The position numbers and the translations under genes were made by a program. Below, piece after piece: positions 6,150-10,261 of a stretch of 35,412 nt of DNA. The DNA is taken from the IMG/VR virus record IMGVR_UViG_3300032893_000194, positions 1 to 35,412 of that record; one strand, written 5' to 3'. Every line of letters begins with the position of its first letter. Position 1 is the stretch's first letter. The notes under the pieces are model-generated. The model had not been told where the DNA came from, made no database searches, and saw only the letters and a list, made by a program, of their open reading frames with translations. This stretch comes from a virus.

Positions 6150-8735
6150 ATGGCCGCTCGCGAGCAGATGGGCTCGAACGTCGATCCGGGGATCGTGCAG
6201 CGCGTTGTGCAAGGGCTGCGCTACATGATCACGGGCGTCGGCCCCATGAACTTCTTCGGGCCGAGCCAGCCGCTCACGCCTGCTGCGCAGACTGCCGTCG
6301 AGGGTCGGGCGTTCGACTACCCGACCGGCTACAACCTTCGCATCCAACCGCGCTCGAACGAGGGCGTGTCGTTCGAGATGCTTCGGCAGCTTGCCGACGC
6401 GTACGACTTGATGCGCTTGATCATCGAGACCCGCAAGGACCAGATCGAGGCGTTCGAGTGGGAGTTGCTTCCGCTTGACAGGGACGCCAAGCCGGACTCG
6501 CGCAAGGACGACATCAACAAGATCGAAGCGTTCCTCAACAAGCCGGACGGCGAGAACTACTGGCCACAGTGGTTGCGCGCGCAGATCGAAGACCTGCTCG
6601 TGCTCGATGCGATCTGCGTCTACCCGCGCAAGACCAAGGGCGGCGGCATCTATGGCTTCGAGTTGGTCGACCCGGCAACGATCGCACGCAAGATCGACCC
6701 TGACGGGCGCACGCCCGTGCCGCCCGATCCCGCGTACCAGCAGGTCATCAAGGGCATCCCCGCGGCCGACTACAGCGCTGACACGTTGATCTACATGCGC
6801 CGCAACGTGCGCACGAATCGGCTCTATGGGTACTGCTTCGCACCGGACATGGAGATTCTGACGCGAGCGGGTTGGAAGCGCGTGAGCGAGGCAAGTTACG
6901 ACGACGAGTTCGCGACTCGTAACCCTGAGACGCACGTGTTCGAGTGGCAGCGGCCGGTAGCCGTGACCTCGCGCGAGTTCGAAGGCGAGCTTGTTCACTT
7001 CACGGCGAAGTCTCTCGACATCCTCGTGACCCCAGAGCACCGCATGCTCGTGCAGTGCGATCGGTCTGATGTGGACCCACGTGAACGTACCATGACGGCG
7101 GACGAGCTTGCCCGGCTTGACGTGCATTGGCGCGTGCCGGTTGCGTGTGATGGATGGGTTGGCGAGCGGATCGAGTCGCGTCGGTTCGGTGGCGATCGAG
7201 TCGAGCACATCAGGTCGTTGCGACAAAAGGGCCTTAGTTACACGCAGATCGCGCGCGAGGTCGACTGCGCGGTCGGGACGGTTGCCGATGTCGTGACCGA
7301 GCGCTACGACTACACGCGTGACCGGGTGGAACTGAGCGGCGAAGACTACTGCGCGTTCATGGGGATGTACCTGTCGGAGGGCAGCATCAACAAGGGCCGT
7401 GTTGTGGTGATCAGTCAAGCGTCGACCTCGAAGCACTTCGACAAGTTCAACGTTGCGCTCAGCCGGATGTTCCGCTCGGCAACGCATGCTGATGGCGACT
7501 TCTCGATTCACAGCCTGCCGCTCGCAACGTACCTGAAGCAGTTCGGTCACTCGCACGAGAAGTTCGTGCCTGAAGACATCATGAACGCCACGACCGAGCA
7601 GATCGAGACGTTTCTTGAGTACCTGTTTGATGGCGACGCGCACCGAGGGCCTCGGGGGGCGACGTACTACTACACCACGAGCAAGCGGCTTGCCGATCAA
7701 GTGCAGGAACTCGCTCAGAAAATCGGCAAGGCAGCTTCGGTGCGGCCCTGCGAGTTGCGTAGCAGCACGCTGCGTGACGGTCGCGTCATCAAGAGCGTGC
7801 GACCACAGTACCGCGTGTCAATCCTTCGTCGTCGCTACATGCACCCGAACGCGACTCGCGTGCCCTATCGTGGCCCAGTGCACTGCCTGAGCGTGCCGAA
7901 TCAGACGGTCTACGTGCGACGCAACGGCCACGCAGCGTGGACGAAGCAGTCGCCGGTCGAGCAGGTCATGACGACCGTGAACATCGCGCTGCGCCGGCAG
8001 ATGTCGCAACTTGACTTCTACACGATCGGCAACGTGCCCGAAGCGATTGCGCAGGTTCCCGACACGTGGACAGGCGAGCAAATCAAGGAATTCCAAGCGA
8101 ACTGGGACGCGCTGATGGAAGGCAACATGGCCAACCGTCGCAAGATGCGCTTCATCCCCTCGCTGGAGAACATCGTCTTCCCGAAAGAGGCGGTGCTGAA
8201 AGACGAGTTCGACGAGTGGCTGGCGCGCATCTGTTGCTTCGCGTTCTCGATTTCGCCCTCGGCCCTGATCAAACAAGTCAACCGGGCGAGCGGCGAGCAG
8301 ATGGCCGAGACCGCAAAGGAAGAAGGCTTGCTGCCGCTCCTGCGGTTCCTCGAAGTGCACCTGACCTCACTGCTCCAGCGCCTGCCGAACGGGCAGGGCT
8401 TGCGCTTCAAGTTCAAGGTGCAGGCCAAGGTCGCACCCGACGTGCAGGCCAAGATCGACGCGAGCGACGTCGAGAACCAGATTCGCACGCCCGACGAGGT
8501 GCGCGAGGATCGTGGGCTCGAACCGATGGCCGACGACGAACGCGAGAAGTGGTTCCCGGCGCCTCCCGAGCCGTTGCCGCCCACGGCGGGGCTCGACGGT
8601 GCGCCACCCAATCCGAAGGTGCCGCAGCCCGGCAAAGGGCCGCAGGGTGCCAAGCCGGCCGCTGGACCGGTCGGCAAGGGTGACACGTTCATCACCGTCA
8701 ACGTCGACGGGAAGCGCTTCGAGAAGGCAGCGTGA
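6150..8735 (+). CDS. portal protein precursor interrupted by an intein
   Basis: Dodecameric portal at the capsid vertex through which DNA is packaged. The 861-residue precursor has an N-extein (1-228) with portal features: DAYDLMRLIIETRKDQIEAF and the ending RTNRLYGY. A 372-residue intein follows (229-600), then a C-extein (601-861) opening SPVEQVMTTVNIALRRQ. Joining the exteins gives RLYGY-SPVEQ, a strongly conserved portal junction; the spliced protein would be 489 residues, normal for the family. The C-terminus is Pro/Gly-rich. The start ATG 6150 follows GGGGAGG; an in-frame TTG at 6138 lies in the terminator T-run and is rejected. The stop overlaps the next GTG start. Splicing is required for function. 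Confidence 0.92.
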   Translation: MAAREQMGSNVDPGIVQRVVQGLRYMITGVGPMNFFGPSQPLTPAAQTAVEGRAFDYPTGYNLRIQPRSNEGVSFEMLRQLADAYDLMRLIIETRKDQIEAFEWELLPLDRDAKPDSRKDDINKIEAFLNKPDGENYWPQWLRAQIEDLLVLDAICVYPRKTKGGGIYGFELVDPATIARKIDPDGRTPVPPDPAYQQVIKGIPAADYSADTLIYMRRNVRTNRLYGYCFAPDMEILTRAGWKRVSEASYDDEFATRNPETHVFEWQRPVAVTSREFEGELVHFTAKSLDILVTPEHRMLVQCDRSDVDPRERTMTADELARLDVHWRVPVACDGWVGERIESRRFGGDRVEHIRSLRQKGLSYTQIAREVDCAVGTVADVVTERYDYTRDRVELSGEDYCAFMGMYLSEGSINKGRVVVISQASTSKHFDKFNVALSRMFRSATHADGDFSIHSLPLATYLKQFGHSHEKFVPEDIMNATTEQIETFLEYLFDGDAHRGPRGATYYYTTSKRLADQVQELAQKIGKAASVRPCELRSSTLRDGRVIKSVRPQYRVSILRRRYMHPNATRVPYRGPVHCLSVPNQTVYVRRNGHAAWTKQSPVEQVMTTVNIALRRQMSQLDFYTIGNVPEAIAQVPDTWTGEQIKEFQANWDALMEGNMANRRKMRFIPSLENIVFPKEAVLKDEFDEWLARICCFAFSISPSALIKQVNRASGEQMAETAKEEGLLPLLRFLEVHLTSLLQRLPNGQGLRFKFKVQAKVAPDVQAKIDASDVENQIRTPDEVREDRGLEPMADDEREKWFPAPPEPLPPTAGLDGAPPNPKVPQPGKGPQGAKPAAGPVGKGDTFITVNVDGKRFEKAA
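6834..7949 (+). mobile_element. intein in portal with LAGLIDADG-type homing endonuclease
   Basis: A 372-codon in-frame insertion. Block A: Cys1 with CFAPDMEILTRAGWKRV. Block B: TPEHR within DILVTPEHRMLV. The endonuclease part has the two expected LAGLIDADG-like helices, YCAFMGMYLSEGS and FLEYLFDGDAHRG, and between them a helix-turn-helix-like stretch (LSYTQIAREVDCAVGTVADV lies before the first helix). Block F: GPVHCLSVPNQTVYVRRNG. The C-terminus is AAWTKQ followed by Ser+1. Terminal Gln instead of Asn, and Lys instead of the penultimate His, are uncommon but Gln-ending inteins are known to splice. The boundaries are set by restoring the GYSPVEQ portal motif. It is likely a mobile element homing into portal genes. 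Confidence 0.92.
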
Positions 8736-10261
8736 GGGTCGCGAGCACGCCGCTCGGCTATGGCCGCACGATGCGGCTGTGCGGATGCTCGATGACCAAG
8801 CGGCGCAAGGCCCGGCCAACCCGCGTGGGCGTCTACGTCGACAAGAAGGCCGAAGCGCTCGCGGCGCGCATCCATGTCGTGATGCGCAAGCACGCCGACG
8901 AGTTGAAGGCGATTGTGCGGCGCCGGCTGAAGAAGGCTGACGACCTCTCGCCTGAAGACCAGATCGTTCGCGACCAGATTCTCAACGAGTTCGACGCAAC
9001 CGCGTTCAGCGGCGACCTGCTCGACGAGATCACGCCCGACATGATCGAGGCGTACCGGGCTGGCGGCATTCGTTCGGTCATCGACCTGATCGTAGGCCAG
9101 CCGACAGAGGACATCACCAGCCAGATCGACCAAGCTGCGCTCGCGTACATCCAAGCGCACGCTGCGGAACTGATCACGGACATCTCCGACACGACGATCG
9201 AAGACCTGCGAGACTTCTTCGGCGAATCGCTGGCCGCAGGGCTCAGCGACGAGGAGATCGCCATTGCGATCGATGACTACTACGCGTTCGGTGAGAGCAG
9301 AGCGATGACGATCGCGCGCACCGAGCTTGCTGCCGCGCACGTCGCCGGCAACGTCGAGGGCTGGAAACAGGCCGATGTGAACGTCACGGGCAAGCGCTGG
9401 ATTCTCGGTGATACACATCCGCAAGAGGACGAGTGCGATGATGCGGCCGATGCCGGCGTGGTGGGGGTCGACGAAGACTTCGTACCGGGGATCGACCTGC
9501 CGCCCGCACATCCGAATGCGGTGCTTGAGGGCTCAGCGTTCGCTAGCTACGGTGAGCTTCAACAGATGGTGCGAGCGTGGTACGTGGGACCCGCAATTAC
9601 GATTTTCTGCGAGTCAAAGCACGTGACCATCGGGCCGAACCATCCAATGCTGACGGCGCGTGGGTTTGTTCGCGCGGAGGAAATTCAGGAAGGCGACGAG
9701 TTGCTGTACGACCTCGCGTGTGATGGCCTTCGATCGTCCGCTGTGAAACCGGACCTCCAGCAAGTGATGCGTGTCGAGGATGCGTTTCGTGCGTTGGCTT
9801 CGATTTGCGGCTACGCGAACATTGCCGGACCCCGAGACTATTTCCACGGCGACGAAAAGTTCGTCTATGGTGAAGTCGATGTTGTACGGCCCAAGCGCGG
9901 TCTGTTGCCGGTACTTGACGCCGGCATCATCGAGAAGCCGTGCAAAGACCTTCTCATGCGGGCCGATACCGAGACCGAGCCGTTCGCGCGTTCGAGCACG
10001 TTCCTCTCGGACGTTGACGGCATCGGTCCCACCACGCCGGGCCTCGAAAGCGTGCGAGGCGATTGCCTTGCGTTCCTCGGGGGTCATTCGGGCGTATCGC
10101 GCTTTCATCGCTGCCGAGTTGTTGCCACCCATGCTCACCACTTCGAAGGTTACGCGTTCGACGCGTCGACAGCCACGAGTATATACAGTTCGGGCGGTTT
10201 CGTAGTGAAGAACTGCATTTGCGACGTCGTACCCGTCATAAGCGAGGGAGAAGAATCGTGA
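8732..10261 (+). CDS. Mu gpF-like minor head protein precursor interrupted by an intein
   Basis: Head morphogenesis protein of the SPP1 gp7 / Mu gpF type, thought to sit inside the head near the portal and sometimes to escort effectors. The 509-residue precursor has a basic N-terminus, a long helical region, and the family signature around residues 190-262 (MTIARTELAAAHVAGNVEGW, KRWILGDTHPQEDECDDA, IDLPPAHPN). The intein (263-494) is inserted before the conserved Cys, and the short C-extein CICDVVPVISEGEES restores HPNCICD. The spliced protein would be 277 residues. Start GTG 8732 overlaps the portal stop (GTGA) and has AGAAGG upstream; ATG 8771 is an alternative. The stop overlaps the next GTG start. 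Confidence 0.9.
   Translation: MRVASTPLGYGRTMRLCGCSMTKRRKARPTRVGVYVDKKAEALAARIHVVMRKHADELKAIVRRRLKKADDLSPEDQIVRDQILNEFDATAFSGDLLDEITPDMIEAYRAGGIRSVIDLIVGQPTEDITSQIDQAALAYIQAHAAELITDISDTTIEDLRDFFGESLAAGLSDEEIAIAIDDYYAFGESRAMTIARTELAAAHVAGNVEGWKQADVNVTGKRWILGDTHPQEDECDDAADAGVVGVDEDFVPGIDLPPAHPNAVLEGSAFASYGELQQMVRAWYVGPAITIFCESKHVTIGPNHPMLTARGFVRAEEIQEGDELLYDLACDGLRSSAVKPDLQQVMRVEDAFRALASICGYANIAGPRDYFHGDEKFVYGEVDVVRPKRGLLPVLDAGIIEKPCKDLLMRADTETEPFARSSTFLSDVDGIGPTTPGLESVRGDCLAFLGGHSGVSRFHRCRVVATHAHHFEGYAFDASTATSIYSSGGFVVKNCICDVVPVISEGEES
9614..10132 (-). CDS. putative Vsr-like (EDxHD) homing endonuclease encoded antisense inside the intein
   Basis: A 172-residue ORF, ATG at 10132 down to TGA at 9616-9614, entirely within the intein. 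It is the only large reverse-strand ORF here that reads like a genuine protein. The N-terminus (MGGNNSAAMKARYARMTPEE) resembles the DNA-binding leaders of phage homing enzymes. PHEKVFARLLDDAGVKY (58-74) supplies the family's E60, GPYNIDF (81-87) supplies D86 and LFVAVEI (92-98) supplies E97. A C-terminal part follows with RTKRILD, a long helix and QHWMVRPDG. In family members a Trp-His and a second His usually follow the VAVEI strand; here the stretch is VSGSGNVRVAAN, so activity may be impaired or divergent. GGTGAG precedes the ATG. The overlap means both strands are under coding constraint. Confidence 0.72.
   Translation of the reverse strand: MGGNNSAAMKARYARMTPEERKAIASHAFEARRGGTDAVNVREERARTRERLGLGIGPHEKVFARLLDDAGVKYRQQTALGPYNIDFTIDELFVAVEIVSGSGNVRVAANRSQRTKRILDTHHLLEVRFHSGRSKAITREVVQQLVAFLNFLRANKPTRRQHWMVRPDGHVL
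10178..10209 (-). promoter_or_regulatory. possible antisense promoter for the nested endonuclease ORF
   Basis: On the - strand a perfect-looking -10, TATACT (10183-10178), overlapping TATATA (10185-10180), follows TTCACT (10209-10204) at 18-base spacing from TATATA. It is about 46 bases upstream of the ATG at 10132. The AT-rich island GTATATAC is conspicuous in GC-rich DNA and forces rare ATA and AGT codons on the sense intein frame (TSIYSS). The match is visual and no promoter activity is shown. Confidence 0.45.

Follow-up and report, generated by a model that had tools for sequence, protein, structure and literature searches.

A mobile intein that carries its homing nuclease gene antisense over its own splicing frame is, with a probability of about 0.88 in our estimate, the best explanation for an insert in the MuF-like minor head protein gene of a virus record of 35,412 bases (IMGVR_UViG_3300032893_000194; this whole stretch is called the window below). 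The intein interrupts the MuF gene in frame, and a 172-codon open reading frame (ORF) lying within it on the opposite strand would encode a nuclease of Vsr-like (EDxHD) fold. The evidence consists of the anatomy of the locus, homology, predicted folds, selection on both strands, empty insertion sites and a transfer between phages. There is very likely a class of phage mobile inteins in which a reverse-complement homing endonuclease gene stands in exact codon register with the splicing frame, the unrelated Hint and Vsr-like folds share one DNA segment, intein block F doubles as ribosome-binding site and start, and the arrangement has been kept across phages of actinobacteria and proteobacteria. 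The features of the window locus are as follows.

8732-10261, plus strand: gene for a MuF-like minor head protein, into which the intein is inserted in frame (509-codon ORF; match to phrog_2468, head morphogenesis, at 2.8e-24).
9518-10213, plus strand: intein of 232 codons, Ala1 to Asn232, followed by Cys+1 (alignment with 52 homologs; AlphaFold2 model against the Mtu RecA intein).
9614-10132, minus strand: antisense Vsr-like/EDxHD-like nuclease ORF, 172 codons plus stop (Pfam, tblastn, family profile, AlphaFold2 model, Foldseek/VIA best match Vsr).
9839-9853, minus strand: antisense VAVEI strand with Glu97, opposite sense DYFHGD (9836-9853); both readings are frozen across the family.
9872-9886, minus strand: antisense YNIDF with Asp86 (NIDF itself at 9872-9883), opposite sense EVDVV (9872-9886).
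9821-9826, minus strand: antisense Gly-Asn (residues 103-104) where the family has Trp-His.
9629-9646, plus strand: intein block B region IGPNHP, with His42 kept and the usual Thr replaced by Gly; it overlaps the C-terminal end of the antisense gene.
9767-9892, plus strand: sense subdomain with FHGD, about intein residues 84-125, predicted structured (predicted local distance difference test, pLDDT, 75-92 in blocks of ten).
9902-10090, plus strand: sense linker of about intein residues 129-191, for which disorder is predicted (pLDDT about 37-47 in blocks of ten); its other strand is the N-terminal part of the antisense ORF.

The original prediction, made from the letters of the window, had placed the 172-codon antisense ORF in an open MuF intein and had set DYFHGD opposite VAVEI and EVDVV opposite NIDF; the coordinates and both correspondences proved right. 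The antisense ORF begins with ATG at 10132 and ends with a stop codon at 9614-9616, and the two frames are exactly codon-aligned, sense positions 1, 2 and 3 pairing with antisense positions 3, 2 and 1. The intein is inserted at the MuF motif PPAHPN/CIC (a slash marks the insertion point here and below). Openness of the antisense frame is by itself unremarkable at this GC-rich locus, where, given the sense protein and the codon usage of the gene, 1.4 antisense stops would be expected. In such expectations, for which 78 of 110 loci were kept in the non-redundant sums after 32 near-identical loci were dropped, the regions were delimited by antisense openness, and zero observed stops are partly by construction. 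The window ORF is raised above chance by homology, namely to Pfam DUF559, to a relative in Rhodococcus phage REQ3 and to the family profile.

The window antisense protein matched DUF559 with an E value of 0.0011 (19.2 bits, below the cut-off of 20.6) and the family profile with 1.9e-53, the alignment of that profile including the window itself. When it was used alone in a phmmer search of PDB, only weak matches of unrelated name were obtained (best E 0.93), and family profiles were therefore needed. Profiles A1 and A9 matched PDB 3hrl (1.4e-7 and 1.1e-7) and the catalytic domain of I-Bth0305I (3r3p; 4e-5 and 3e-4), and additionally helix-turn-helix (HTH) proteins. Among 65 family members, 57 were matched by Pfam REase_MTES_1575, 17 by DUF559 and 27 by the resolvase model HTH_7; each of the HTH models matched up to 30 of the 65, with best values down to 1.2e-13. 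The AlphaFold2 model of the window antisense protein reached a mean pLDDT of 89.4, and its best structural match by Foldseek and VIA was Vsr 1cw0 (Z 11.6, root-mean-square deviation (rmsd) 2.6, 111 aligned), followed by 1vsr (Z 10.5), 3hrl (10.2) and I-Bth0305I (9.8). The Vsr-like/EDxHD identity proposed for the ORF is thus borne out by nuclease homologs (DUF559, REase_MTES_1575, 3hrl, I-Bth0305I) and, for Vsr, by fold. The family shares the motif string E...YNxD...VAVE[IV]FGGxWH, and its acidic residues and Trp-His are kept widely (D 65, E 65, W 60 and H 62 of 65 loci). By sequence and model, the antisense ORF belongs to a real, old Vsr-like/EDxHD protein family.

On the sense strand, phrog_15127 was matched by all 53 scanned ORFs, the window's among them. 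Pfam Intein_splicing matched 38 of 41 sense inteins and intein_Nterm 28 of 41; at E 0.01 neither was matched by the window's own intein. The structure predicted for this intein has confident ends (about residues 1-66 and 195-232) and aligned with the Mtu RecA intein (Z 13.1, rmsd 1.5, 106 aligned), and with the Pfam matches of relatives and the block alignment this identifies a Hint splicing fold with blocks A, B, F and G. Between blocks B and F no in-frame endonuclease domain was found: the linker is mostly predicted disordered, and no homing endonuclease model appeared among the sense matches (Pfam and NCBIfam, E 0.01). Position 1 is Cys in 51 of 53 aligned inteins, and Ala1 with Cys+1 occurs in the window and six sister loci. 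One DNA segment is predicted to give a Hint protein in one direction and a Vsr-like fold in the other. The sense FHGD, within its small predicted-structured subdomain, is frozen as firmly as block B.

Relatives were collected from both directions. By tblastn with an E limit of 0.1, the sense intein found 44 phage records and the antisense protein 49, the listed rows being largely the same loci; the hosts were Rhodococcus, Gordonia, Pseudomonas, Cronobacter, Vibrio, Escherichia and Klebsiella. The relative in phage REQ3 lies at the equivalent antisense position (1e-30), other relatives being weaker, and relatives placed antisense within inteins span phages of 38-71% GC. At 13 tblastn loci, including Vibrio phages of 42-46% GC, the antisense frame had no stop in the match and was open for at least 208 codons, and the 13 antisense proteins aligned as one family. 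Three loci first seen only via the sense query (L013, L014 and L015) carry the antisense ORF too. Scans with antisense alignments, the best 80 of 208 being kept in scan A6, gave 98 viral loci and one bacterial contig; in all 99 the antisense match falls entirely within a codon-aligned sense ORF, with the two remaining sense frames mostly short, and the match is stop-free in 93 and holds one stop in 6. Scans with sense alignments are the fairer test. They yielded 159 distinct loci (from the best 80 of at least 543 and the best 80 of 96 relatives, some contigs being already in via antisense queries), and all 159 matched the antisense profile on the opposite strand (E <= 1e-3). The antisense frame is thus kept open in relatives, as the original interpretation had it, and beyond its claim for a single locus these comparisons point to a large, old family. 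Single-protein scans of viral contigs with the window antisense and sense proteins gave no matches, because the window's own branch is divergent. Insertion-site patterns across the loci were taken with a crude regular expression, and several rows were misread.

A scan of 295 genomes of the family of the Atlantibacter genome gave 12 matches at 1e-8. One of them, L116, covers most of the profile; the other 11 are confined to its catalytic part. At locus L266 (637-1536, minus strand), one of the 159, the antisense frame is split by one stop into two profile matches, possibly a decaying nuclease gene. The contig of L211 holds a second antisense-profile match (873-1739, minus strand), opposite an ORF with ...LVHN/CDYC, which suggests two antisense-type inteins in one phage. 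In Virus Rctr197k (L014, 1162-2514) the antisense-ORF intein interrupts a gene that reads as dCMP-deaminase-like from sequence and is recorded as a putative head morphogenesis protein. Acinetobacter phage IME285 (L011, 455-1348) carries a free-standing homolog of the antisense nuclease, convergent with and directly behind an intein-free MuF gene; it may be an intermediate or an escape. The antisense gene was unannotated in all 15 intein-bearing phage records first examined, and such proteins are hidden by present annotation.

Constraint, which the original prediction expected on both strands, was examined in close pairs and in codon columns, and was present in both. From 104 pairs compared, 50 with fewer than three overlap differences were left out; the 54 remaining pairs are not independent. 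Outside the overlap, differences at sense position 3 exceeded those at position 1 in 54 of 54 pairs. Inside it, position 1, the antisense wobble, exceeded position 3 in 49 of 54 (3 ties, and 2 reversed, both of deep Gordonia type), and antisense identity was above sense identity in 50 of the 54 non-independent pairs. Taking one pair per group in the 8 of 16 groups with antisense identity of at least 0.7, a threshold that excludes the deep Gordonia-type pairs, the differences summed to 284/79/186 at sense positions 1/2/3 in 1894 overlap codons and, for the same pairs outside the overlap, to 508/329/1078 in 3525 codons. Antisense-frame identities outside the overlap were below those in sense (2336 vs 2910 of 3525 codons).

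The codon columns were read in 65 non-redundant loci, drawn from the 80 that the first sense scan had given and located by patterns in the sense reading of blocks A and B. Despite sense-synonymous alternatives, the antisense residues Y (63), N (65), D (65), E (65), W (60) and H (62) were kept, alongside sense F (65), H (65), G (61) and D (64); D, E, W, H and FHGD in this set are free of ascertainment by the search patterns, block B is partly ascertained, and Y and N were partly so in an earlier motif count. Among 18 conserved four-fold antisense columns, the wobble was free in 13 and frozen in 5. Two of the frozen columns are G and H of the sense motif FHGD; the other three read W, H and T in sense, with a spacing that fits block B and the following Gly-Trp. 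Block B has a role in splicing. A similar picture was obtained for the catalytic motifs in 132 of the 159 loci, a set in which the HGD and VYDLQT residues, not their codons, are partly ascertained. The close-pair rhythm together with the frozen columns indicates that the antisense gene dominates the linker and that block B and FHGD are held by the sense strand. By sequence comparison, selection acts on both strands in the family.

The antisense translation start coincides with block F. Most antisense starts are preceded by a GGAGG-, GAGG- or GAGA-type sequence about 7 bases off the start codon, for example gaggttataaac-ATG, and this Shine-Dalgarno-plus-start stretch is the reverse of the block F codons H-V-Y-N-L (HVYNLQ/HVYDLQ). 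Block F was readable in 123 of the 132 loci kept from 159. The codon before [VI][YFH][ND]L was CAT in 90 and CAC in 24, giving an antisense ATG or GTG in 114 of 123, and the block F Leu codon was CTC in 107 of 123 loci, compared with 27% of Leu codons elsewhere in these ORFs.

Mobility was examined with the intein of fEg-Eco06, an E. coli phage (Kagunavirus). Its MuF gene matched 183 phage records (E. coli, Salmonella and related phages), and its intein matched 4 at megablast sensitivity, 99.7-100% identical. Three carriers of this type, compared directly, differed by 1-3 bases per 894, and identity in their flank windows beyond the first 25 bases was 0.56-1.00, mostly 0.82-0.97; a near-identical intein in phages with diverged flanks is as predicted by homing. 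The last 25 bases left of the intein are common to the three carriers (1.00), as a short co-conversion tract would give. On the left of the site, between 25 and 1200 bases away, the intein-free phage BEU33 was identical to fEg-Eco06 in all flank windows (1.00). Both intein-free relatives examined have an uninterrupted site, that of BEU33 being one codon short beside it. The fEg-Eco06 insertion site, RTST(T)/CRARDG, is a second MuF site, the main one being HPN/CRC. By these comparisons the fEg-Eco06-type element was recently transferred between phages. Close intein-free kin of the window were not found, an empty site being seen for fEg-Eco06 relatives only.

We infer the following course of events. 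The MuF gene would be translated through the intein, which would splice itself out, and the sense linker would mainly need to stay open, except for the constrained block B and the small FHGD subdomain. On the other strand, reversed block F would supply the Shine-Dalgarno sequence and start codon for a second protein, which would combine HTH domains with a Vsr-like (EDxHD) nuclease domain and have its end near block B. This protein would most likely bind and cut intein-free MuF alleles, and repair would copy the intein, antisense gene included, into the cut alleles.

By its sequence the window copy is a derived form with Ala1, in which the antisense protein is shorter and its active site altered. 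Ala1 is common to the window and six sister loci (L276-L281, L279 being REQ3); in this subclade the block B Thr is replaced by Gly or Ser, and Cys+1 is kept. Ala1 with Cys+1 suggests class-2-like splicing, direct at Cys+1. The antisense protein of the window retains Glu60, Asp86 and Glu97. By eye, L281 alone of the seven loci keeps both the HTH and the block F start. Between the window and its sister loci, antisense identity was 0.35-0.46 inside and 0.16-0.23 outside the overlap, and sense identity 0.32-0.43 and 0.26-0.37; for L276 the values were 0.46 (antisense) and 0.43 (sense) inside, and 0.23 and 0.37 outside. The 175 overlap codons of L278 and L279 hold 27/3/16 differences at sense positions 1/2/3, with identities of 0.94 (antisense) and 0.86 (sense), a rhythm indicating that the shortened antisense protein is still under selection there. 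L279 and L280 (5/0/6 differences) are too close to be informative.

Several observations weigh against a homing nuclease at work in antisense. Two deep Gordonia-type pairs go the sense way in the overlap (L006/L036, 87/67/100; L017/L036, 91/69/110), and between the window and REQ3 the antisense frame has no excess (60 identities, against 66 in sense, in 156 codons). The window's block F is without the Shine-Dalgarno/start motif of its relatives; a weak match stands upstream of its ATG, the first antisense ATG sitting 7 codons further in. A sigma-70-like promoter was not found in the two stretches scanned. The tract shared by the three fEg-Eco06-type carriers is limited to 25 bases on the left and is absent right of the intein, and the transfer among E. 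coli phages shows that the element moved, not that the antisense protein moved it. In the Ala1 subclade Trp-His is replaced by Gly-Asn at all seven loci, and an HTH match is absent in the window antisense protein, while relatives have HTH domains. Finally, as Cys1 of the window intein is Ala, its splicing must, judged from sequence, go by another route or be impaired.

Some of these points would suit a different explanation, in which the sense intein alone codes and the antisense conservation is an echo of a conserved, codon-aligned sense frame. Codon alignment does transmit second-position conservation, with 1.4 expected stops the window frame would be open by chance about one time in 4-5, and the deepest pairs are without antisense excess. 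Against such an echo, the substitution rhythm inverts inside the overlap in close pairs, antisense-frame identity falls below sense outside it, the antisense proteins match HTH models (to 1.2e-13), nuclease models and PDB nucleases, and one relative stands alone as a gene, with many stops on its opposite strand. The inverted rhythm, the nuclease and HTH matches and the free-standing relative led us to reject it for the family, and we consider it extremely improbable. It is also very unlikely that a part of the sense linker such as the FHGD subdomain is the mobility protein and the antisense gene secondary: FHGD is predicted structured and is frozen as firmly as block B, but the subdomain has about 40 residues, the remaining linker is predicted disordered, and the sense matches held no homing endonuclease model.

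Somewhat less improbable, though still unlikely, is a real antisense protein with a role other than homing, for example one that binds DNA to regulate late genes, or a repair or nicking enzyme of Vsr-like kind, which the resolvase-like HTH matches and the Vsr fold would fit equally. Its place speaks for homing, however: the gene lies inside an intein at every sense-retrieved locus, the one free-standing close relative read adjoins an intein-free MuF gene, one such element recently moved between phages, and I-Bth0305I, among the best structural and profile matches, is a homing endonuclease. For the window subclade, the chances are even that cutting by the antisense protein has been lost and that the protein persists for binding, nicking or some other function. 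Such a loss is favored by the Gly-Asn that stands for Trp-His (the original prediction had noted the missing Trp-His as leaving activity doubtful) and by the HTH not seen by eye in six of the seven loci, both being peculiar to the Ala1 subclade. The L278/L279 pattern shows that antisense selection continues nonetheless; Glu60, Asp86 and Glu97 are kept in the window, however, and Asn could support altered chemistry. The window copy itself possibly no longer cuts. For the family, these considerations leave a mobile intein with an antisense homing nuclease as the supported interpretation.

The same phage seems to hold a second intein, in its portal gene (6138-8735, plus strand), by eye from about ...LYGYC/FAPDM to ...WTKQ/SP, which on the sense strand matches LAGLIDADG_3 (1.2e-6) and, below threshold, HTH_38. 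One phage would thus carry a canonical homing endonuclease intein beside the antisense type. LAGLIDADG-type inteins (PI-SceI, PI-PfuI) likewise combine a splicing element and a homing nuclease in one insert at a conserved host-gene site; in the antisense type, by contrast, the nuclease is a protein of its own, whose gene lies on the opposite strand and shares every base with the splicing frame. I-Bth0305I (PDB 3r3p) resembles the antisense family in its catalytic-domain profile match and fold, many members of the family having a separate DNA-binding part as well; unlike them, it is labelled 'mobile intron protein' and is not intein-borne. Free-standing EDxHD-type nucleases reportedly lie between split-intein halves in the fractured genes that Dassa is said to have described in 2009. 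The association of the same nuclease kind with inteins is shared, whereas here one unbroken intein ORF (99 of 99 loci) has the nuclease gene inside, on the other strand.

The nearest analog found is that of Porphyra group I introns, for which PMC2585584 describes homing endonuclease genes on the complementary strand, antisense within the splicing element as here. There the genes lie in an intron extension in an rRNA gene, where sense coding is not required, whereas both strands of the intein are protein-coding. Antisense overlapping genes of prokaryotes, likewise ORFs embedded antisense in known genes, are characterized in a review (PMC7457138) as typically small and less constrained; the intein-borne frame, by contrast, encodes a nuclease domain of predicted fold conserved across phages of very different hosts. 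An antisense nuclease gene within an intein was not found described in the full text of open-licence PMC papers, in agreement with the original statement that the arrangement is undescribed. As far as these searches show, the gene architecture is new within the open-licence literature searched, the element itself being a mobile intein.

If correct, these findings would add a further way for an intein to carry a nuclease, besides in-frame fusion and the split halves mentioned above. They would give a clear example of antisense dual coding that is both long and old and involves two folded domains, and would bear on the open question of the function of long antisense genes in prokaryotes and phages. 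They would also open to experiment the question of how a selfish element governs two readings of the same bases when the transcripts oppose each other, and of how block F gained a translation start.

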